Source of the DNA: Paracoccus jeotgali
GTDB taxonomy: Bacteria; Pseudomonadota; Alphaproteobacteria; Rhodobacterales; Rhodobacteraceae
Direction: 5' to 3'
Length of the DNA stretch: 64,000 bases
Assembly: GCF_002865605.1 (NCBI RefSeq)
Contig: NZ_CP025584.1
Coordinates: 62,001-126,000 of the forward strand
Below are positions 4,392 to 22,752 of this stretch, in pieces. A program made the position numbers and the translations under genes. Below the pieces are notes generated by a model. It saw only the letters and a list, made by a program, of their open reading frames with translations, was not told the DNA's origin and did no database searches. How positions within the stretch are numbered: position 1 is the first letter of the stretch; every line of letters begins with the position of its first letter.

Positions 4392-5400
4392 GGCTCTGTT
4401 GCACAAATCGCGTAAGGGAGACATCTAGTGAATCGAGCGTGGTAGCTGGGCTGCATGAGCAGCCCCACCTACAGGACCAGAAACTGGCCAGCCTACGATA
4501 AAGCGCCCAAGCTCGCTGATTAGATCCCACTATGACCTGGGATGCCGCACCGACAGGCAGAGATGGCCGCCAGCGAACCTACAGCGATGCCGCTATCCAG
4601 ACCTGCCTCTCGATGAAGGTGCTGTTCGTCATGGCGCTCCGTCAGACGACAGGCTTCGCGGAAAGCATGTTGCGGCTGGTCGGTCAGTCGGTTTCGACTG
4701 GACAGTGCACGGCTTCAGAACGCTGTCGCGCCGCCAGAAGACCCTGGCCGTAAACATCCCATATCGCGGGTCCAAGGGGCCGCTACACCTGCTGATCGAC
4801 AGCACCGGCATCAAGGTTGAGGGCGAAGGCGAGTGGCACGGCCCCAAGCATGGCCGTCCCAAGCGGCGGGTCTGGTGCAAGATCCATCTCGGGATTGATG
4901 AGGAAACGCTGGAGATCCGCTCTGTCGAGATCACCGGGAGCCATACCGGTCGCGCACCTGTCCTGCCTGATCTGCTCAGCCAGATACCGTTTGGCGAAGA
5001 GGTCGGTTCTGTAACCGCCGACGGCGCCTACGACACCCGCAAGTGCCTTGATGTGATCGCCGAACGCGGCGCGCACGCTGTCATCCCGCCCCGCAAGAAC
5101 GCGAAGCCCTGGAAGACCATCACCGGGGAAGCCGTGGCGAGAAACGACACCCTTCGCGCGGCCAAATACCTTGGCCGTGCGCTCTGGCGACGATGGAGCG
5201 GATACCATCGCCGGAGCCTGAAACTGCTGGGCCAGGGGCTCATCGCACGGGACTTCGACCGTTAGGTTGCCGGACTCCAGATCCGCATCGCCCTTCTGAA
5301 CGGCTACACCGCACTCGGTATACCAGTCACGGAAGCTGCGGGATAAGTCCGTCCGGGGAAAGGGGAGCTTTGCCCATCAGCCGATTTGTGCAACAGAGCC
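4392..5400. mobile_element. Decayed IS5-family element, IS903-like
   Basis: Element of 1009 bases bounded by inverted ends GGCTCTGTTGCACAAATCG and its complement. The transposase resembles the IS903 group. The 9 bases outside each end differ (CCTCGTTTT and TGTGGAAAT), so no target duplication survives, consistent with a deletion or recombination at this site. It separates the antitoxin gene from the HU-like gene. Confidence 0.85.
4455..5346 (+). pseudogene. IS903-like transposase, broken
   Basis: Remnant of a DDE transposase. It starts MSSPTYRTRNWPAYDK and is stopped after about 23 codons by TAG. It resumes in another frame (TWDAAPTG, QTCLSMKVLF), shifts again near 4690 into WTVHGFRTLSRRQK, and then runs through LLIDSTGIKVEGEGEWHG (first catalytic Asp) and VTADGAYDTRKC (second). 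Near the C-terminus the residues expected between HRRS and KLLGQ are missing, and a TAG follows RDFDR. At least two frame changes, two stops and a small deletion make it inactive. Confidence 0.85.
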
Positions 5401-5424
5401 TGTGGAAATACCGGAGCTTTCCTG

Positions 5425-5739
5425 ATGAGCCAGCCCTTGACGCAACCTTACACGCCCAAGCCTTTGACCAAGGCCCAGCTTGTCTCTGCCTTGGCGGAGG
5501 AGATGGGAGGCGACAAGCAAACGGCCACGGCAGCGCTGGACGCTTTGCAGGCCTTGGTTGCCAGGACGATACAAGCTGGTGGTGCGCTGACGCTGCCGGG
5601 GATCGGCAAGATCGCCTGCCGCGACAGGCCGGAGCGGATGGTCCGCAACCCGCAGACGCAGGAGCTGACCCATCGGCCAGCAGATCGGGCAGTCAAGGTC
5701 ACAATTGCCAAGGCGCTGAAGGATGCGGTGAACTCCTGA
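5425..5739 (+). CDS. HU-family DNA-binding protein
   Basis: Protein of 104 residues with the HU/IHF fold: LTKAQLVSALAEEMGGDKQT at the start and the strand region GALTLPGIGKIACRDRPER with NPQTQE. HU proteins bind and bend DNA as dimers. The ATG at 5425 is chosen because the residues before it are encoded by the end of the insertion sequence, so the native promoter is probably lost or replaced. The last third (HRPADRAVKVTIAKALKDAV) fits the family. Confidence 0.85.
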   Translation: MSQPLTQPYTPKPLTKAQLVSALAEEMGGDKQTATAALDALQALVARTIQAGGALTLPGIGKIACRDRPERMVRNPQTQELTHRPADRAVKVTIAKALKDAVNS

Positions 5740-5961
5740 ACGGGAGCCGCGCCGGTCTCTTTCGCGCCCAGCTGACTGCGGGTGGGGGCGGCTTTGCCCC
5801 TGCCGCGCCTTACACCCCCACATTGCTCCGGTAGCAGAGCAGGGACACTGCGCGGTGCTGTGGGCGTGGCCGAGACTGCATCTTCGGCATTCCGGCGACT
5901 GGCCGAGCACCGCCTCCGGGTATATTCTGGCTTCATGCTGTGAGCCGATCTGAGGTCTGAC

Positions 5962-6216
5962 ATGGTCAAGAGCCTGACGCGGCAGGCGAACTGGCGCCGC
6001 TCGAACCCACGCAAATACGGTGCCCACCTCGCCGTGCAGCGGGCGTTGAACGCCGGGTTGCTGGTGAAGGAGTGCTGTGAAGTCTGCGGCAAGGCGACCG
6101 TTGATGCTCACCATGATCATTATGACCAGCCGCTGAATGTCCGCTGGCTGTGCCGCCGCCACCACGTCAGGCTGCATCAATTTGGTGAGGACATGTTCCC
6201 GCTGTTTCCCAAATAG
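5962..6216 (+). CDS. Small CxxC/HH zinc protein, HNH-like
   Basis: Protein of 84 residues with a paired metal-site layout: CEVCGK, then DAHHDHYDQPLNVRWLCRRHH. The Cys-x2-Cys and Cys-x2-His-His spacing with the central HHDHY resembles HNH-type zinc folds common in phage and plasmid genes. The N-terminus is basic (RQANWRRSNPRKYG), consistent with nucleic acid binding. Function unknown. It stands alone between the HU gene and the mobilisation module. Confidence 0.65.
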   Translation: MVKSLTRQANWRRSNPRKYGAHLAVQRALNAGLLVKECCEVCGKATVDAHHDHYDQPLNVRWLCRRHHVRLHQFGEDMFPLFPK

Positions 6217-14494: not shown

Positions 14495-14728
14495 CTAGTG
14501 AACTGCTGAACATTCCTCGTCGCCCTGTAATAGCAATCGAAGCTCTCTCGCCTCGGCGGCAGTGATCTCGCGACCTTGCGCGCGCATGAATGCGCCAATC
14601 ACGAACAGCGCTTCTTCAACACTGCTGGTTTCGAGGTTCAGAAAGCAGTCGGCAAGCGGCACAGGACTGATTTGATGTCTTTCTCGCGCCTGTCTTATGC
14701 GGCGCAGCGCATTAATTGACGCGGTCAT
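14495..14728 (-). CDS. Hypothetical protein coupled to RTX gene
   Basis: Small helical protein of 77 residues (SINALRRIRQARERHQ, SVEEALFVIGAFMRAQGR, TAAEARELRLLLQGD). Its ATG shares one base with the TGA of the RTX gene (TGATG), so translation is probably coupled. No known domain is recognised. Cotranscription suggests a role in making or controlling the RTX protein. Confidence 0.55.
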   Translation of the reverse strand: MTASINALRRIRQARERHQISPVPLADCFLNLETSSVEEALFVIGAFMRAQGREITAAEARELRLLLQGDEECSAVH

Positions 14729-16692
14729 CAACGCGATCTTTCTTTAGGCAATGGATCGGACTGTAGATACACCCACCGCCTCTGCAGCCGCCTCACCATC
14801 CGGGACAGCAGGAACCGCGAGACGCGGCCTGCCCGGTTGCGCGGCGTGAACCAGCGGGCGAGTTTGGGGCCGATCCACCAGTAGAAGGCGATGAAGGCCC
14901 GCCCTGCCCGGTAGTTGCGCAGCGTGTTGTCGCGGAAGGCGCGCAGGTAGCAGACGTCGGGGTGCATCGGGTCGCCGTAAGTGGCGGTGGCGACGAAACA
15001 CGAGCCGCCGCTGTCGGGGGTGGAGGCGGGGTCGTCCTCGGGCGGCACGCGGTCGGGGTCGGTGGGGGGTTCGCCGTCCATGACGTCGCGGGTGAAGTCC
15101 TCGACGCTCATGTGGCCGAGACCCTTGAACAGCGTCGTGGTGCCGTCGCTGTAGGTGACCTTCATGTCCATGCGGTCGCTGCCGTCGGAGGCGGGTTCGG
15201 GCTCGCAGGCGTATTCGGACCCGGCCGAGAAGGCGCGCGCACCGGTGGTCATGTTGAACTCGTAGAAATCCACGCCGACCTGGAAATCGGTGATGGTGGT
15301 CACCGAATTGCTGACGATGACAAAGGTGTCGCTGCCGGCGCCGCCGGTCATGATCACCTCGCCGCCATCGGCGCCGATCAGCGTGTCGTTGCCATTGCCG
15401 CCGATCAGGATGTCGACATCGCCCTCGTCGGCGCGGCCGTATTCGTCGCCCGCCTGCAGCCGGTCATCGCCGTCGCCGCCGATCAGCGTGTCACTGCCCT
15501 TGCCGCCGATCAGAACGTCGTTGCCCGCGCCGCCGTCGAGCTTGTCGTGGCCCTCCCCGCCAAGCAGCCGGTCCGCGCCCTCCCCGCCTTCCAGCAGGTC
15601 ATTCCCGGCGCCGCCGTTCAGGATGTCATTGCCCGGCCCGCCCTTGATGGTGTCGTTGCCGGCGCCGCCGAGCAGCGTGTCATTGCCGCGCCCGCCCGAG
15701 ATCAAATCGTCGCCGAAGCCGCCCTCGATCCGGTCATCGCCGCCGTTGCCGTAAAGCGTGTCATTGCCGGCGCCGCCATAGATCGTGTCGTTGCCGCTGC
15801 CGCCATAGATGATGTCATCGCCCTCGCCGCCGTCGATCCAGTCGTCGTCGAGCCCGCCGGCGATGCTGTCATCGCCCTTGCCGCCATGGATCACGTCGGT
15901 CGATTTGCCGCCATCGATCCAGTCGCCGCCATCGCCGCCATAGATGGTGTCGGCACCCATTCCGCCGTCGATATGCACGCCGTCGTCATTGTCGGCGTGG
16001 ATTTCCTCGGCGTCGCGGCCGCCGCGCTGGTGGTGAAACTCGCTCTCGTCGCGGTCCAGATCGAAGGCGGGGAAGGTGTCGACATAATCCTCGTATGCGA
16101 TGTCGGCGCTGGCCGGGACGCCGTGCGCCCAGTCCTTCGGCCATTCGATGAAATGCGGTTCCTGATTGCCCCGGATCGCCTCTTCGGGCGGCACCTCGCG
16201 CGCGCCTTCCAACGCATAGAGGATGTTCCCGTTGATCAAGATCCAAGGCTGCTCGTTATGTTCGACAATGCGGACATGCGAGGGCAGGTTGGCGAAGTCG
16301 ATCTCTTTGCCGTCCACCGCAATCTTGTCGCGCGAGGCGTCGAAATCATCGAGCCGGCCGACGATCTTCTTCGTCGAGCCTTCGGTGATGAAGTTGAAGG
16401 TGTCGCTGCCCTCGCCGCCAAAGACGTGCGAGCCATGCGGTGCGATCTTGTCGCCGCTGTGGATGTGGATGACGTCGTCGCCGTCAAGCGCGTAGACATG
16501 AGCTTGCGAGGCACCGATCGGCGCGGAATAGATGACATCGTCGCCATGAGTGCCGACCACCATGCCGCCATCGCTGGAATGGCTGGGCGCGTGGATGGTG
16601 CCACCCGCGGTGCCGGCGTTGTGAAGGAGATGATCGGGGAGCTCGGACCCCTCATGGGCGGAACGGGGAGAAAGATGGCCTGCGGTCTGCAT
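14728..16692 (-). CDS. RTX calcium-binding repeat protein with CFI-box C-terminus
   Basis: Protein of 654 residues. About twenty hemolysin-type nonapeptide repeats ([16 protein letters not shown] and variants) run roughly from residue 255 to 470; these bind calcium after export and typify type I secreted proteins. Two further GG-D-type units lie nearer the N-terminus. The C-terminus is unusual: [15 protein letters not shown] matches the CFI-box C-terminal domain, followed by [17 protein letters not shown], a possible membrane-associated helix, and a basic tail. The ATG at 16692 has GAGG upstream; the frame opens 25 codons further. No TolC or ABC exporter genes are nearby. No enzyme domain is visible, so adhesion or a surface role is possible. 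Confidence 0.8.
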
Positions 16693-17140
16693 GTCGCTTC
16701 GCCTCGCGCTTGTGATGGGGACACACGCTAAAGCTGCAACTCGGTACACCACAGGTTGATCGAACAACCGCGAGACGAATTCAAGCGGGAAATAGGTCTA
16801 TTACGGGTTCTGACGAACTGATTTTGCTTGGGTAGCTTGCAACCACAGGACGTAATCCGCGGCGTAGATGCGCCGTCAGCTTGAGCCGTCACCATTCCAT
16901 GGGTCTTAGAGGTGCCGCCGGGGATGTGGTTCCCACGATGTCGTGCTCAGGACCGTTGCTGGCGTCCGTTAACGACACTTGATGAGATGGGCCCGGCGGG
17001 CATTGCACCGAACAAGCATCATGTCGGCAGCCACGCGCTGGCCACCGGCCAAAGGACGTGCCCAAATGACCTTATGAATGCGGGTGCGAAAAAAGGGCAG
17101 CGAACCAAAAAGGGTTGGCCGCTCTCCTGCTTCGGCAAAG
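16693..17140. other. No gene recognised
   Basis: About 450 bases upstream of the RTX gene. I see no supported gene. It should hold the RTX promoter. Composition is less GC-rich near 16740-16860 than in the flanking genes. Confidence 0.5.
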
Positions 17141-17572: not shown

Positions 17573-17656
17573 AAGTGCCAGCATCCACGCCAGCAGCGTG
17601 TGCTTGTGCAGATCGGCCGCGTTTCCGGCGTGATAGATGTGCTGATAGGACAACAT
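17573..17656 (-). pseudogene. rlmJ: rlmJ 5' remnant
   Basis: The first 28 codons read MLSYQHIYHAGNAADLHKHT and LLAWMLAL, the characteristic start of RlmJ, the 23S rRNA adenine-2030 N6-methyltransferase. After this the frame loses all similarity and soon stops. Only the N-terminus survives, so the gene was cut by a rearrangement. It lies 26 bases beyond the U-rich tract of the small-RNA array on the same strand. Confidence 0.65.
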
Positions 17657-17681
17657 GCGGGTTTATCGCGCTCCTGCCCCG

Positions 17682-17724
17682 AAAAGGAAAGCGGCGGCGC
17701 CCAGGGAGGAGGGGGCGCCGCCGC
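17682..17724 (-). terminator. Rho-independent terminator ending the small-RNA array
   Basis: The last hairpin of the array (arms 17691-17702 and 17713-17724, 12 paired bases, almost all G/C) is followed on the minus strand by TTTCCTTTT. This gives a strong intrinsic terminator and fixes the direction of transcription as minus. Confidence 0.8.
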
Positions 17725-17836
17725 ATCAACGCTGGCCCAGGGAGGAGGAGGGGCCGCGTATGGGGTGCGGTGCCGGCAGGGAGGAGGACGCCTGCACCGC
17801 GAACACGGACCCCGAGGGAGGAGGAGGGGGCCGCGT
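17691..17836 (-). ncRNA. CcsR/cuckoo-type small RNAs, distal quartet
   Basis: Four stem-loops spaced 37-39 bases apart. Arms: 17803-17813 with 17826-17836 (one mismatch, one G-U); 17767-17777 with 17790-17800 (one mismatch); 17729-17738 with 17751-17759 (one bulge); 17691-17702 with 17713-17724 (perfect). On the minus strand every loop carries UCCUCC followed by CU or CCU, the CCUCC core of the CcsR (cuckoo) RNA family. Stem sequences differ while loops are conserved, so selection acts on the loops. The last one doubles as the terminator. The loops could pair with Shine-Dalgarno sequences or other GGAGG sites. Confidence 0.8.
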
Positions 17837-17869
17837 ATTCTCTGCGCCATCCCGGTTCGGAACGCACAG

Positions 17870-17893
17870 GCCGGCCCTTTGCGAAGGTCCGGC
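17870..17893 (-). other. Linker hairpin without the CCUCC loop
   Basis: Inverted repeat between the two small-RNA quartets: arms 17870-17879 and 17884-17893, nine pairs and one mismatch around a 4-base loop (CGCA on the minus strand). No U tract follows, so it is probably a processing or spacer structure, not a terminator. Confidence 0.55.
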
Positions 17894-17905
17894 GGTCATC
17901 TGTTA

Positions 17906-18059
17906 TGCGGCGACCCCACAGGGAGGAGGAGGCAGGGTCGCCGCAGCACCAACGAAGCAAGGGAGGAGAGAGCTTCGTTGTATTCAGCGGTGACGCCCCA
18001 AGGGAGGAGGAGGAGGGGCGTCACCTGAACCCTGACCCGAGGGAGGAGGAGGGTCGGGG
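17906..18059 (-). ncRNA. CcsR/cuckoo-type small RNAs, proximal quartet
   Basis: Four stem-loops directly downstream of the DUF1127 gene, centres 38-42 bases apart. Arms: 18030-18038 with 18051-18059; 17989-17999 with 18015-18025 (perfect, 11 pairs); 17950-17958 with 17972-17980 (perfect, 9 pairs); 17906-17916 with 17935-17945 (perfect, 11 pairs). Loops of 12-18 bases read CCUCCUCCC on the minus strand, or CUCUCCUCCC in the third. In Rhodobacter sphaeroides four such RNAs (CcsR1-4) follow the DUF1127 gene ccaF1, are cut from its transcript and act in oxidative stress. The same order here makes the assignment strong. Confidence 0.85.
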
Positions 18060-18069
18060 ATGGGAATTC

Positions 18070-18294
18070 TTACTTGCCCCAGGCGGCTTCGGTTGCGATC
18101 CTGGTGATCATGCTGCGGTGAATGCCGAGATCGGCGAGTTCACGGTTCGACAGATGCGACAGCTCGGTCACGGTCTGGCGATAGACGGCACGACGTGCGC
18201 GGGCTTCCTGCAGGCGCATGATCATCCCCAGGATACCGGTTCCGGCGTCACGCTGGGTGCGAGCGGTTTGGTGAAGGGTGTCGGTTGCGGCCAT
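18070..18294 (-). CDS. ccaF1: DUF1127 protein, CcaF1-like
   Basis: Basic protein of 74 residues. The DUF1127 signature fills the C-terminal half: AVYRQTVTELSHLSNRELAD, then LGIHRSMITRIA. In Rhodobacter sphaeroides the homologue CcaF1 is a small RNA-binding protein cotranscribed with CcsR1-4 and affecting their maturation. Here the stop codon is 10 bases before the first hairpin. The symbol is given by synteny plus domain; other DUF1127 paralogues exist in this group. Confidence 0.8.
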   Translation of the reverse strand: MAATDTLHQTARTQRDAGTGILGMIMRLQEARARRAVYRQTVTELSHLSNRELADLGIHRSMITRIATEAAWGK

Positions 18295-18352
18295 AATACT
18301 AACTGTTCTTCTTTTTCTGGTTCATCTGGTCGGTGCGGGGTTCCGCGCCGTT

Positions 18353-18387
18353 GGGATAAAGATGGGGCAAATGCTGCGGGTGCACAA
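18353..18387 (-). promoter_or_regulatory. Possible RpoH-type promoter of ccaF1 and small RNAs
   Basis: On the minus strand GTTGTGC (TTGTGC at 18387-18382) is followed after 15 bases by CCCATCTTTA. This resembles heat-shock sigma promoters (CTTG-type -35, CCCATnT -10). It would give a leader of about 50 bases. The known Rhodobacter locus is driven by RpoHI/RpoHII. Confidence 0.5.
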
Positions 18388-18487
18388 CGCATATTCCCTC
18401 AATGCTGCCATGCGGCATCTGCAAGCCGCCCCGAAGATGAGCCGATAAGTTAACGGGTTTGTTACATAAAATTTCAGTGTTTCCGTG

Positions 18488-18945
18488 TTAGCGCCTGACA
18501 AATGATGTAGCGGCGAAGTCCGCCAGCATGTCGAGGACACTCTCGCGTAAAGAATCCTGCGGAATGCTATCGAGCTGACGGCGCAGGTCGCGCATGACGC
18601 GGCCCGGTAGTCCTTCAGCGTCCGCAGCGCCTTGCGCAGCCGCTTGAATTGTCGGCGTGGGCATAACGTCCGACCTTGACCGCCAGCCTTGGCGCGTCAG
18701 GCGCGCGTAGCCCTCGCAGAGCCCAATGTCGACCTCGGCGGTAAGCGCCACCAGTTTTTGCCGCACAGTCTCTCAGAGCCGGGCGTCGGTCGGATGGGCA
18801 ATGTTCTTTTCCATGACCGTGGTGTCGACCGGCACCGAGGTTTCGAGATACAGCTGCAAAACCCTGCAGTCTCCCGCAGAGGCAGGCGGCGTCTGAGTGC
18901 CCGCCGCCCCACCCTCGCAATGTCGGGAGGAGTCGGTAGCTGCAT
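18488..18945 (-). pseudogene. IS5-type transposase C-terminal remnant
   Basis: The minus strand reads LYLETSVPVDTTVMEKNIAH, then PTDARL, a TGA, and VRQKLVALTAEVDIGL. It then changes frame twice around RLAVKVGRYAHA and resumes as GRVMRDLRRQLDSIP. This is the middle and C-terminal part of an IS5-family transposase with an in-frame stop and at least two frameshifts. It lies upstream of the ccaF1 promoter, with no intact ends visible. Confidence 0.7.
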
Positions 18946-19042
18946 CGGACGCCGCAGGGATGCCCCAGTAGAGCGGCCTTGCGGAGAGGCGATGTCAGAT
19001 ATACATTTTAATTCTGTGTATCCAGAAACGGAGGCGAGACTG

Positions 19043-19270
19043 ATGCAGGTGTCGAAATGGGGCAACTCCCTTGCGGTCCGATTGCCGGTCAAACTCCTCC
19101 GGGAGCTGGGATTGAAGGAGGGGGATCGGATCGATTTCAGGAAGGATGATGGTGCGGTTCTGGTTCGGCGCCAGCCGGAGGCCGAGCAGGTGCTGCAGGA
19201 ACTGCGTGGGTTCCGCGGCAGGTTGCCGAGGCAGGACCGCCTGAGCCGCGACGCAGCGAATGAGCGTTGA
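19043..19270 (+). CDS. AbrB/MazE-type antitoxin
   Basis: Protein of 75 residues starting MQVSKWGNSLAVRLPVKLLR, then LGLKEGDRIDF, the swapped-hairpin AbrB fold of VapB/MazE antitoxins. The ATG at 19043 has GGAGGCGAG upstream. The C-terminal part (ELRGFRGRLPRQDRL) is the toxin-binding tail. The stop overlaps the PIN-domain gene by 11 bases. Confidence 0.85.
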   Translation: MQVSKWGNSLAVRLPVKLLRELGLKEGDRIDFRKDDGAVLVRRQPEAEQVLQELRGFRGRLPRQDRLSRDAANER

Positions 19271-19655
19271 ATTCGCCGTTACCAATGTGATCCTGTATCT
19301 CCTCGACGAGGGGCCGAAAGCGGACCGGGCCGAAGAGATACTGGCGAACGGGCCGCGGATCAGCGTGCAGGTGCTGAACGAAGCCCTGGTCAACTGCCGC
19401 AGAAAGGCGGGCCTTGATTGGGACGAGACAGGGGTTTTCCTCACCGGCATCCAGACGTTGTGCACCGTCGAGGATCTGACCGTACAAACCCATCAGGTGG
19501 GACGCGCCTTGGCCGAGCGCTACCAGTTCTCTGTTTATGACGCCATGATCGTCGCTGCGGCACTGCTCTCCGGCTGCACGACCTTGTGGAGCGAGGACAT
19601 GCACGATGGCCTGCTCGTGGAAGATCAACTCCGCATCGTCAATCCGTTTCACTGA
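19260..19655 (+). CDS. PIN-domain toxin, VapC-type, with altered first acidic residue
   Basis: Protein of 131 residues with PIN-domain layout: FAVTNVILYLLDEG at the start, VLNEALVNCRRKAGL in the middle, and YDAMIVAAALLSGCTTLWSEDM near the end. VapC toxins are metal-dependent RNases controlled by the antitoxin encoded just upstream. The first strand normally reads xxDTN; here it is AVTN, so the first catalytic Asp is Val. The later Glu and two Asp positions are kept. The toxin may be inactive or weakened. Confidence 0.8.
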   Translation: MSVEFAVTNVILYLLDEGPKADRAEEILANGPRISVQVLNEALVNCRRKAGLDWDETGVFLTGIQTLCTVEDLTVQTHQVGRALAERYQFSVYDAMIVAAALLSGCTTLWSEDMHDGLLVEDQLRIVNPFH

Positions 19656-20458: not shown

Positions 20459-21956
20459 CTACCCGCGCCATTTCCAAGGCAGCAGGTCATCGACCTTTGT
20501 GATCTTGTAATCAGGGATACGGGCCAGGGTGTCGGCGAGCCAGGCATGGGGATCGATGGCGTTGAGCTTGGCTGTTTCGATCAGGGTGTAGGCGATGGCG
20601 GCGGCCTTTCCACCTGCCTCGGAACCGACGAATAGGTAGTTTTTCCGCCCGAGGGCGATGGCGCGCATGCCGCGTTCGGCGGCGTTGTTGTCGAGCTCGA
20701 GGATGCCGTTGTCGAGGTAGGGGCGCAGGCGTTCCATCCTGGTGAGGGCGTATCGGATGGCGGCCGCTAGGGGGGATTTCCCCGAGATCGTGGTGAGTTG
20801 CATGGCCAGCCAGACTTCCAGGTCATCGAAGACCGGGGCGGCATGTGCCTTACGGAGTTCGGCGCGGCGGTCCGGTGGCGAACCTCGGGCTTCCTTCTCG
20901 ACGGCATAGAGCCGGGCGATGCGGCCGATGGCCTCCTCAGCGATCGGCGAACCTTGCGATCGGTGGATGTCCACGAACTTGCGCCTGACATGGGCCATGC
21001 AGGCGACCTCGCGGATGGCGCCGGAACGGTAGAGATCCTCGAACCCGGCATAGCCGTCGGCATGCATCCAGCCGCGGAAACGGGCCAGATGATCCTTGGG
21101 GTGCTGACCCTTGCGGTCGCCCGAGAAGCGATACCATGCGGCAGGCGGAGCATCGCCATCCCATGGGCGCTCATCGCGGGCATAGGTCCAGAGCCGGGCC
21201 GTCTGGGTCTTGCCGGTGCCGGGCGCCAGCATCCGCACCGGCGTATCGTCGGCGAAGATCGCCTCGGCCGACAGGACATGGCGCCCGATGGCCTCGGCCA
21301 GTGGCTCCAGAAGGGTGGTGGTCTTGCCGACCCAGTCGGCCAGGGTCGATCGGTCGAGATCGAGCCCTTCGCGGCCGAAGATCTGGCTCTGGCGATAGAG
21401 GGGAGATGGTCGGCATACTTGCTGACCAGCACATGGGCCAGCAGACCCGGCCCGGGGCGACCGCGCTCGATCGGGCGCGACGGCAGCGGGGCCTGGACGA
21501 AGCGTTCGCAGCAAGCGCAGGTCAGCCGGGGCGGACAATCCGGTTCACGATGAAGCGCCCAGGAACATACTCCAGCTCTTCCGTGACGTCCTCGCCGATC
21601 CGGCGCAGGCGACCGCCGCAATCGGCACAGGCATCGGCGCCGGGCATCAGTTCCACCTCCATCCGGGGGATATGATCCGGGATCGGACGGCGCTTGGGTT
21701 TGCCCTTCTCCTCGATGTCCGGCAGACGCATCCGCGCCGTCATCGCGGCGGCCGCGATCTCGCTGGCCTCAAGAGCCAACTGAAGCTGTTCTGCCGTCTC
21801 CGAGGACGCGCCGAACCGGTGTGCCCGGTGCCCGGCCAGTTGGTGCCGCAGCTTCTCGATCAGGATCGCCTGCGCCTTCACCTCGGCCAGAAGCCGCGCG
21901 GTGAAGCTGCGCAACTCCTCGGGATCTTCCGGCAGGGTCAGGGTCTGATCGAGCAT
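20459..21956 (-). pseudogene. tnpC: IS66 transposase TnpC, frameshifted
   Basis: The DDE transposase of IS66 spread over three frames. The first part has a Leu-rich helix (RLLAEVKAQAILIEKLRHQL), a zinc site (CADCGGRLRRIG) and ends after NRIVRPG. The second reads LTCACCERFVQAP through VSKYADHLP. The third runs from YRQSQIFGREGLDLDRSTLA to LLPWKWRG and holds the catalytic core (FADDTPVR, HADGYAGFEDLY). Each join is explained by one missing base, near 21535 and 21412, both in C-rich runs. Either the copy is decayed or these are sequencing errors. Confidence 0.85.
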
Positions 21957-22015
21957 GCAAGGAGTTTATCCCACGGGATTCCTTATGGGAATCATTCTCT
22001 TGTGGCCCCCCCTGA

Positions 22016-22360
22016 TTATCCCGCTGCCAAGGGCCGCCACGTTCGCTCCGGGCACGCCAGTCGATCCCTTCCAGGAGCATCGACAACTGCGCCGGTGTCA
22101 GCGCCACCTTCCCTCCTTGGCCGAGGGCCAGACGAACCGGCCCGCTCCAGCCGCTTCATGAACATGCAGGCCCCCTGGCCATCCCACCAGATGACCTTCA
22201 CCAGATCACCGCGACGGCCGCGGAAGACGAAGAGATGCCCGCCGAAAGGATCCTGCTTCAGCACCGCCTCGGCCTGCGCCGCCAAGGAAGCAAAGCCCTT
22301 GCGCATGTCGGTGACCCCGGCAGCCAGCCAGACCCGCGTGTTGGCCGGAACCGGGATCAC
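22016..22360 (-). pseudogene. tnpB: IS66 TnpB, frameshifted
   Basis: Accessory protein of IS66 transposition. It starts [20 protein letters not shown], then [20 protein letters not shown]. After KRLER one G is missing near 22145, and the family sequence continues in another frame ([18 protein letters not shown]). A second single-base loss near 22050 returns it to [10 protein letters not shown] at the stop. It overlaps tnpA by ATGA. Confidence 0.85.
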
Positions 22361-22752
22361 GCCGAAAGTCCCCGGATCAGCCGCGCCAGCGCCTCAGGAT
22401 CATAGCTGCCGCTGATCCGCATCCGGTGACCGCCCGCCAGCTCGATCTCGATGTGGTTCTCGGCGGCAGGTGCCGCCGGAGTAGACCTGGTCTCCGCGAC
22501 GATCTCTACGGGCAGAAACCGCGCCTCCTCTGCTGGGGGCGCAACCGAGGTGGGGTCCGGCGCATAACGGGGATCGCGCAGCCACTTGAAGATCAGGTTC
22601 GCGTTCACCGCGTAGCGCCGCGCCACCTGAGCCACGGAAACGCCCGGCGCCGCCGTCTGGAAACAGATCGAACGCTTCTCCTCATCCGTCCAAAGTCGCT
22701 TCGTCCGACGCGCCACGCCATCACCATAGTGTCCACTATCAATGGTGGACAC
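22357..22752 (-). CDS. tnpA: IS66 TnpA (Orf1)
   Basis: Intact first gene of the IS66 element, 131 residues. It carries a helix-turn-helix typical of Orf1 ([20 protein letters not shown], then [15 protein letters not shown]) and a C-terminal [20 protein letters not shown]. It probably recognises the ends. Translationally coupled to tnpB by a 4-base overlap. Confidence 0.9.

Follow-up and report, generated by a model that had tools for sequence, protein, structure and literature searches.

The systems nearest to the locus studied here are described after excerpts of the papers cited. DUF1127 genes with CcsR-like small RNAs are frequent in alphaproteobacteria and are termed CIN1 loci (PMC10253847). 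The ccaF1-CcsR1-4 operon of Rhodobacter sphaeroides has an RpoHI/RpoHII promoter and a Rho-independent terminator, and its transcript is cut by RNase E with the involvement of the DUF1127 protein CcaF1 (PMC10253847, PMC8625941). The flhR mRNA is targeted by CcsR1-4 (PMC8307010). The R. sphaeroides transcript RS0680a was described in 2011 as containing two stem loops, with an anti-Shine-Dalgarno motif in each (PMC3927594). In Sinorhizobium meliloti, the sRNA NfeR1 carries three CCUCCUCCC loops, which are redundant and are required to silence ntrB at its start region (PMC10746234). The pairing of a DUF1127 gene with a row of CCUCC hairpins is thus an already known kind of system. For Paracoccus, a term search of a P. 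denitrificans sRNA paper gave no hit for CcsR, CCUCC, ar14, Rfam, or DUF1127 (PMC5107571). Searches of the openly licensed literature listed no report of CcsR operons carried by plasmids, nor any of CcsR RNAs in Paracoccus, which does not prove that none exists.

The window, which is the whole stretch of 64,000 nucleotides analysed here, contains such an arrangement on its minus strand. An intact 74-codon DUF1127 gene (18070-18294) is followed by eight stem-loops with UCCUCC in the loop, running from 18059 to 17691; ten bases separate the stop codon from hairpin 1. The features of the operon are as follows, in the direction of transcription.

18403-18417, minus strand: candidate operator with the palindrome TGCCGCATGGCAGCA, located 30 bp ahead of the -35 element
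18360-18387, minus strand: putative RpoH-like promoter, TTGTGC-N14-CCCCATCT; the relaxed motif is conserved upstream of DUF1127 genes of the genus
18070-18294, minus strand: DUF1127 gene, 74 aa, CcaF1-like (PF06568, E 3.4e-13); protein identical to that of the chromosomal copy
18030-18059, minus strand: hairpin 1, loop UCCUCCUCCCUC; first hairpin of the CcsR1-model match at 17985-18067
17982-18030, minus strand: hairpin 2, loop UCCUCCUCCUCCCUU; second hairpin of the CcsR1-model match at 17985-18067
17950-17980, minus strand: hairpin 3, loop UCUCUCCUCCCUU; in the CcsR1-model match at 17902-17985
17902-17949, minus strand: hairpin 4, loop CUCCUCCUCCCU; in the CcsR1-model match at 17902-17985
17841-17901, minus strand: gap with stem-loops lacking CCUCC (from folding); corresponds in the alignment to hairpins 5 and 6 of relatives that have ten
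17801-17840, minus strand: hairpin 5, loop CUCCUCCUCCCUC; in the CcsR1-model match at 17762-17842 and the ar14 match at 17724-17841
17767-17800, minus strand: hairpin 6, loop UCCUCCUCCC; in the CcsR1-model match at 17762-17842 and the ar14 match at 17724-17841
17727-17762, minus strand: hairpin 7, loop CUCCUCCUCCCU; in the CcsR1-model match at 17688-17766; aligned in 61 genomes
17680-17724, minus strand: hairpin 8 (17691-17724), loop CCUCCUCCCU; together with the U-rich tail it forms a terminator-like end

The initial annotation had described eight UCCUCC-loop stem-loops behind a DUF1127 gene, regularly spaced in two blocks of four with a gap of about 105 bases. A constrained-folding scan recovered all eight, and their loop centres are spaced 37.5, 42, 39.5, 105.5, 36.5, 39, and 37 bases apart from hairpin 1 to hairpin 8, which confirms this description. 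Elsewhere in the window, on either strand, the longest run of CCUCC-loop hairpins is three, two of them being overlapping calls. The hexamer UCCUCC itself is unremarkable in the whole window (43 occurrences versus 39 expected); the part that is not due to chance is its clustering in hairpins rather than its abundance. Folding of the minus-strand transcript, which had been proposed as a check, gave -205.8 kcal/mol (z = -7.2), and none of 100 shuffles was equally good. A coding origin of the repeats seems unlikely; the long overlapping frames there look like a by-product of repetitive, GC-rich sequence.

The loops had been said to be constant and the stems variable. UCCUCC is present in each of the eight loops, and the comparison of hairpins 7 and 8 in 61 genomes of the genus (52 distinct rows) bears out the variable stems: 99.7% of the cells pair, with changes on both sides in 6 of 21 pairs, in an alignment whose structure was drawn from its first row and is therefore somewhat favoured. 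When the partner was slid by one to three columns, pairing fell to 36-55%. Of the 97 last-two-hairpin pieces extracted, the 61 in this alignment were taken for their length of 74-81 bases; one further piece of that length (L236) was left out. The stems of the last two hairpins are supported by this comparison across the genus. The closing U tract stood in part. There is a U-rich, terminator-like end behind hairpin 8, but the tract is imperfect (UUUCCUUUUC), and the site is one of two listed by a terminator scan with 1.1 expected by chance.

Upstream of the gene, two elements are conserved. The relaxed motif TTGWG-N16-19-CCATST, drawn up post hoc from an alignment of related genomes, is present in 83 of 102 regions upstream of DUF1127, with a mean of 0.15 in the mononucleotide shuffles that served as its control. 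The palindrome motif TGCYGCATRGCAGCA, drawn up post hoc in the same way, occurs in 53 of the 102 regions and in none of the shuffles. Both motifs are present in 46 regions, at a distance of 30 or 31 bp in all 46. These counts show conservation, not function. The palindrome at 18403-18417 is perhaps the operator of some regulator. A stricter sigma-32 pattern was found in 15 of 103 upstream regions, the window's among them (shuffle mean 3.5, maximum 9), and was rejected as the general form of the promoter. The sigma-70 promoter scan found none.

No Rfam family attains its gathering score in the window. The CcsR1 model (RF02791) reaches 41.4 bits at best (E 1.3e-8; gathering score 65.3), and the locus is not filed as a member of RF02791. 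The ar14 model (RF02344) reaches 52.6 bits (E 1.3e-8; gathering score 58.8) at 17724-17841 and 52.9 bits in a chromosomal copy of the operon, described below. The covariance search suggested in the initial annotation thus gave matches at E 1.3e-8, but all of them lie below the gathering scores. Each operon copy has four CcsR1-model matches (E 1.3e-8 to 4.2e-4), and the model itself is a two-hairpin RNA of 83 positions. Nine more weak CcsR1 matches (E 0.004-0.8) lie elsewhere in the same genome; at the lax limit of E 1, ar14 matches in 3 and CcsR1 in 8 of 14 control genomes, so only strong matches count. The 6C RNA (RF01066; 27.0 bits, E 0.24, gathering score 47), Streptomyces Scr3202 (E 0.009), and the other weakly matching families, which we take to be out of clade, were rejected as below cut-off.

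Cereibacter johrii and Luteovulum azotoformans, which we take to be of the R. sphaeroides group, were compared with the locus. In C. johrii, the CcsR1 model matches four times behind DUF1127 (106.2, 39.4, 43.6, and 46.6 bits in locus order); only the first of the four units passes the cut-off, and the other three fall short. The hairpin scan found eight hairpins in this species, arranged as four pairs (spacings 38, 66, 38, 76, 39, 74, and 39). L. azotoformans likewise has four CcsR units and eight hairpins. CcsR1-4 in the Cereibacter relatives checked is thus four RNAs with eight hairpins, and the eight of the window equal that number. The divergent mraZ-rsmH genes lie about 2.3 kb from DUF1127 in both relatives and about 1 kb away from the chromosomal copy. 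However, several differences were also found. The hairpins of the window are arranged in quartets, whereas those of Cereibacter are in pairs; rlmJ lies directly behind the array here and was not found beside the Cereibacter arrays; the Rfam score is below the gathering cut-off; and a second, plasmid-borne copy exists here. Quartets or even rows in the genus, as against pairs in Cereibacter, suggest that the processed units may differ. The alpha-r14 sRNAs of S. meliloti, including NfeR1, share the tandem hairpins, the CCUCCUCCC loops, and the variable stems (PMC10746234, PMC3927594), and the ar14 model matches here as given above; NfeR1, in contrast, has three hairpins and is an sRNA expressed from a promoter of its own, whereas the hairpins here lie behind a DUF1127 gene in a longer array.

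Kinship with the CcsR (cuckoo) RNAs behind DUF1127 genes had been claimed from the sequence, and both the model matches at E 1.3e-8 and the same anatomy in C. johrii and L. azotoformans uphold it. The DUF1127 gene lies directly upstream on the same strand; the hairpins are in tandem, with constant CCUCC loops and stems that are variable yet paired; and the orthologous place in the genome is occupied by the chromosomal copy, whose duplicate is the plasmid copy. It is therefore highly probable that the locus is a CIN1/CcsR-type operon, present twice, whose processed RNAs would silence mRNAs through anti-Shine-Dalgarno loops under stress. The genome has a third DUF1127 gene (G000:C1:792380-792484), and none of the listed CcsR1-model or ar14 matches lies next to it.

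The less ordinary feature of the locus is that this operon copy sits on a plasmid and is a near-duplicate of the chromosomal one of the same cell. The window belongs to a contig of 149,225 bases (C2) in a three-contig genome. This contig carries parA, parB, and an initiator-like gene for a DnaA_N/HTH protein. Such ParA, ParB, and DnaA_N/HTH genes mark the DnaA-like plasmids of Rhodobacterales, and the contig is taken as a plasmid on the basis of these genes. A RepABC plasmid was rejected: the profile search found no match to PF03428 or PF07506 in the genome, and no RepC or RepB-family match on the contig. The duplicated block and its edge are as follows.

17578-18507, minus strand: 930-bp duplicated block, also at chromosome C1:395881-396810; 923 of 930 bases identical in blastn, no gaps
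17578-17656, minus strand: first 26 codons of rlmJ, truncated at the block edge; start MLSYQHIYHAGNAADLHKHTLLAWML in common with the chromosomal rlmJ

The block extends from 213 bases upstream of DUF1127 to rlmJ codon 26. The complete rlmJ (262 aa; L007, 8172-8960) is on the chromosome, where the operon lies near the dcw cluster. The two copies differ at seven positions (17612, 17672, 17801, 17840, 17851, 18118, and 18478), of which 18118 is silent. All seven lie outside the loops, the last hairpin, the promoter-like element, and the palindrome. The outermost pair of hairpin 5 (17840-17801) is G-C on the plasmid and C/U, unpaired, on the chromosome. Compared with eight relatives, two sites changed on the chromosome (odd versus all eight), two probably changed on the plasmid, and three are undecidable. 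The distinct flanks and the scattered differences argue against an assembly error. Transfer of the block by an insertion sequence was rejected, as neither an IS end nor a target-site duplication was seen at either edge. An 8-bp repeat, GCCAGCAT, was seen at 17577 and 18522.

The surroundings of the block were also inspected. To its right, the minus strand of 18488-19655 holds what by eye may be the remnant of a transposase, although Pfam gave no match. The plus strand there encodes a MazE/PIN-domain (VapBC-like) pair, relatives of which occur on Rhodobacterales plasmids. An IS66-type transposase is present at 20459-22752, and its neighbouring frames look IS66-related by eye. On the other side, a 679-aa minus-strand frame (14728-16767) has many GGxGxD-type repeats and looks RTX-like by eye.

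The plasmid copy may be a roleless passenger, a piece of the chromosome caught by illegitimate recombination and now decaying; we give this reading slightly less than an even chance. The block breaks off inside rlmJ, its edges show no visible IS or target duplication, and the flanks are mosaic plasmid DNA, all of which would fit a passenger. Differences are spread over both copies, and among 72,556 plasmid records only four show any match to the block, in a collection that may lack records close to the window's genome. On the other hand, everything from promoter to terminator is retained, and the protein is identical. The sparing of loops, promoter-like element, palindrome, and last hairpin, and the closing G-C pair that the two hairpin-5 differences give the plasmid copy, also speak against decay, weakly so with only seven changes.

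Copies of such operons away from the chromosomal place were found in other Paracoccus genomes. The best of the four matching plasmid records is pAK2 of Paracoccus sp. AK26, which covers 36% of the block at 74% identity. On this plasmid, a separate DUF1127 gene and five hairpins lie between a RecD-like helicase gene and a DUF3072 gene. The pAK2-type operon was found at 95-96% identity in four of 121 genomes (G083, G003 on two contigs, G087, and G052), and at 85-86% identity in two more (G022 and G073). Five contigs from the four genomes (L288-L292) share about 4-6 kb with pAK2 (L198) at 93-96%, and the contig of G022 (L296) has about 2 kb in common with it at 88%. Among the seven pAK2-type regions (pAK2 and six contigs), the promoter motif is present in all seven and the palindrome in five. 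The pAK2-type loci resemble the window's operon in having DUF1127, CCUCC hairpins, and the same promoter motif, and in pAK2 in being plasmid-borne. However, only four or five hairpins were found in them, their DUF1127 proteins share 55-69% identity with that of the window in the aligned region, and they are not copies of the window's block.

The shared segments suggest that the pAK2-type segment is likely spreading horizontally. The divergence of its operon indicates that carriage outside the usual chromosomal site is there separate from, and older than, the event seen in the window. From these two cases it might be proposed that CcsR-type operons are mobile regulatory cargo in Paracoccus, whole promoter-DUF1127-hairpin-terminator units being repeatedly acquired by plasmids and shifting the stress response or restraining plasmid or host mRNAs. 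We regard this generalization as rather unlikely. If it were true, such cargo would add anti-Shine-Dalgarno loops and a DUF1127 protein under the host's own heat and oxidative-stress control; the window would be the fresh case, and the pAK2-type operon in the six genomes the older, spreading one.

With respect to the mode of action, stress transcription, RNase E processing, silencing by pairing of the loops, and the role of the protein are modelled here on R. sphaeroides and S. meliloti. An RpoH-like stress promoter would drive one transcript, comprising the DUF1127 gene, the row of CCUCC-loop hairpins, and the terminator-like hairpin. An endonuclease would cut in the linkers and yield small RNAs of one or more hairpins, and the DUF1127 protein might help in their maturation. 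The exposed CCUCC loops would then pair with the Shine-Dalgarno sequences of selected mRNAs, and translation would be lowered. The plasmid copy would act as a second copy of the chromosomal operon near the dcw cluster. Other modes may exist for DUF1127 proteins; in Agrobacterium tumefaciens, they can act through the kinase PhoR (PMC12501420).

Alternatively, the loops might act mainly on a protein, either the DUF1127 protein or another binder of C-rich RNA, or might influence in cis how stable the DUF1127 mRNA is, and not act on Shine-Dalgarno sites. The physical link to DUF1127, termed an RNA-binding protein in R. sphaeroides (PMC10253847), would agree with this, and so would the range from 6 to 20 hairpins over 100 complete loci, as a sponge would allow. 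It is nevertheless improbable, because the same loop in NfeR1 silences ntrB and mutation of the loop abolishes the silencing (PMC10746234), and because flhR mRNA is a target of CcsR1-4 (PMC8307010). Pairing of the loops with Shine-Dalgarno sequences by processed hairpin RNAs, which the initial annotation had suggested as possible and to which both of these analogies point, appears to be the most likely mode here.

The number of hairpins was compared across the genus. The array pattern (three TCCTCCC at such spacing) matches in 119 of 121 Paracoccus genomes, but its backward control also matches in 38 of 121, on the array strand, probably since C-rich loops read alike backwards; the count is therefore carried by the hairpin scan and by the DUF1127 and rlmJ neighbours. 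No array was found in two of the 121 genomes (G017, which is 71% complete, and G084). Taking one locus per genome, 100 loci have DUF1127 before the array and rlmJ behind it; 17 loci of 2 to 9 hairpins that lacked a DUF1127 match within 260 bases, and two without rlmJ, were omitted. Among these 100, subject to a caller that may miss or add single hairpins, there are 6 hairpins in 1 locus, 7 in 1, 8 in 17 (own included), 9 in 3, 10 in 25, 11 in 5, 12 in 23, 13 in 7, 14 in 13, 15 in 1, 16 in 3, and 20 in 1. Eight is an ordinary number, towards the low end of the genus, and more than eight are found in 81 of the 100. The 4+4 layout (a middle gap of at least 64 bases and no other gap above 48) occurs in 9 of the 17 eight-hairpin loci, own included, and does not set this locus apart.

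The nearest relatives suggest how the present number arose. The eight relatives whose DUF1127 is at least 77% identical all have ten hairpins; the next one (G015, DUF1127 76%) has eight and no wide gap. In the alignment, hairpins 5 and 6 of the ten-hairpin relatives fall within the 105-base gap, where the window has stem-loops without CCUCC. Eight here looks like ten minus two: versus the nearest relatives, two hairpins appear to have lost their loops, with the stem-loops staying in place. As both copies in the genome have the CCUCC-less gap, that state predates the duplication. The initial reading of the array as the single CcsR quartet of R. sphaeroides doubled, giving raised dose or specialised members, is hardly tenable: the two blocks of four and the wide gap are real, and the 4+4 layout recurs in the genus, but the CcsR unit has two hairpins, the two Cereibacter relatives total eight, most complete loci of the genus exceed eight, and relatives have two further hairpins opposite the gap, whose CCUCC is absent here.

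This corrects an appealing misreading, in which hairpins are equated with sRNAs; eight hairpins are what CcsR1-4 comprises in the Cereibacter relatives examined. The doubling of four is no oddity, and what deserves to be followed is the duplicate on the plasmid, along with the broad natural variation in loop number. The comparison provides a genus-wide set with 6 to 20 anti-Shine-Dalgarno loops per operon at one syntenic place, as well as natural plasmid copies of the operon. Together, these make the question of dose testable, as loop number against the strength or spread of silencing. The largest array seen has 20 CCUCC-loop hairpins in five quartets with gaps of 70-72 bases, at 5135-6041 of a Paracoccus saliphilus locus (L140); the 20 hairpins of G074 have the same spacing.
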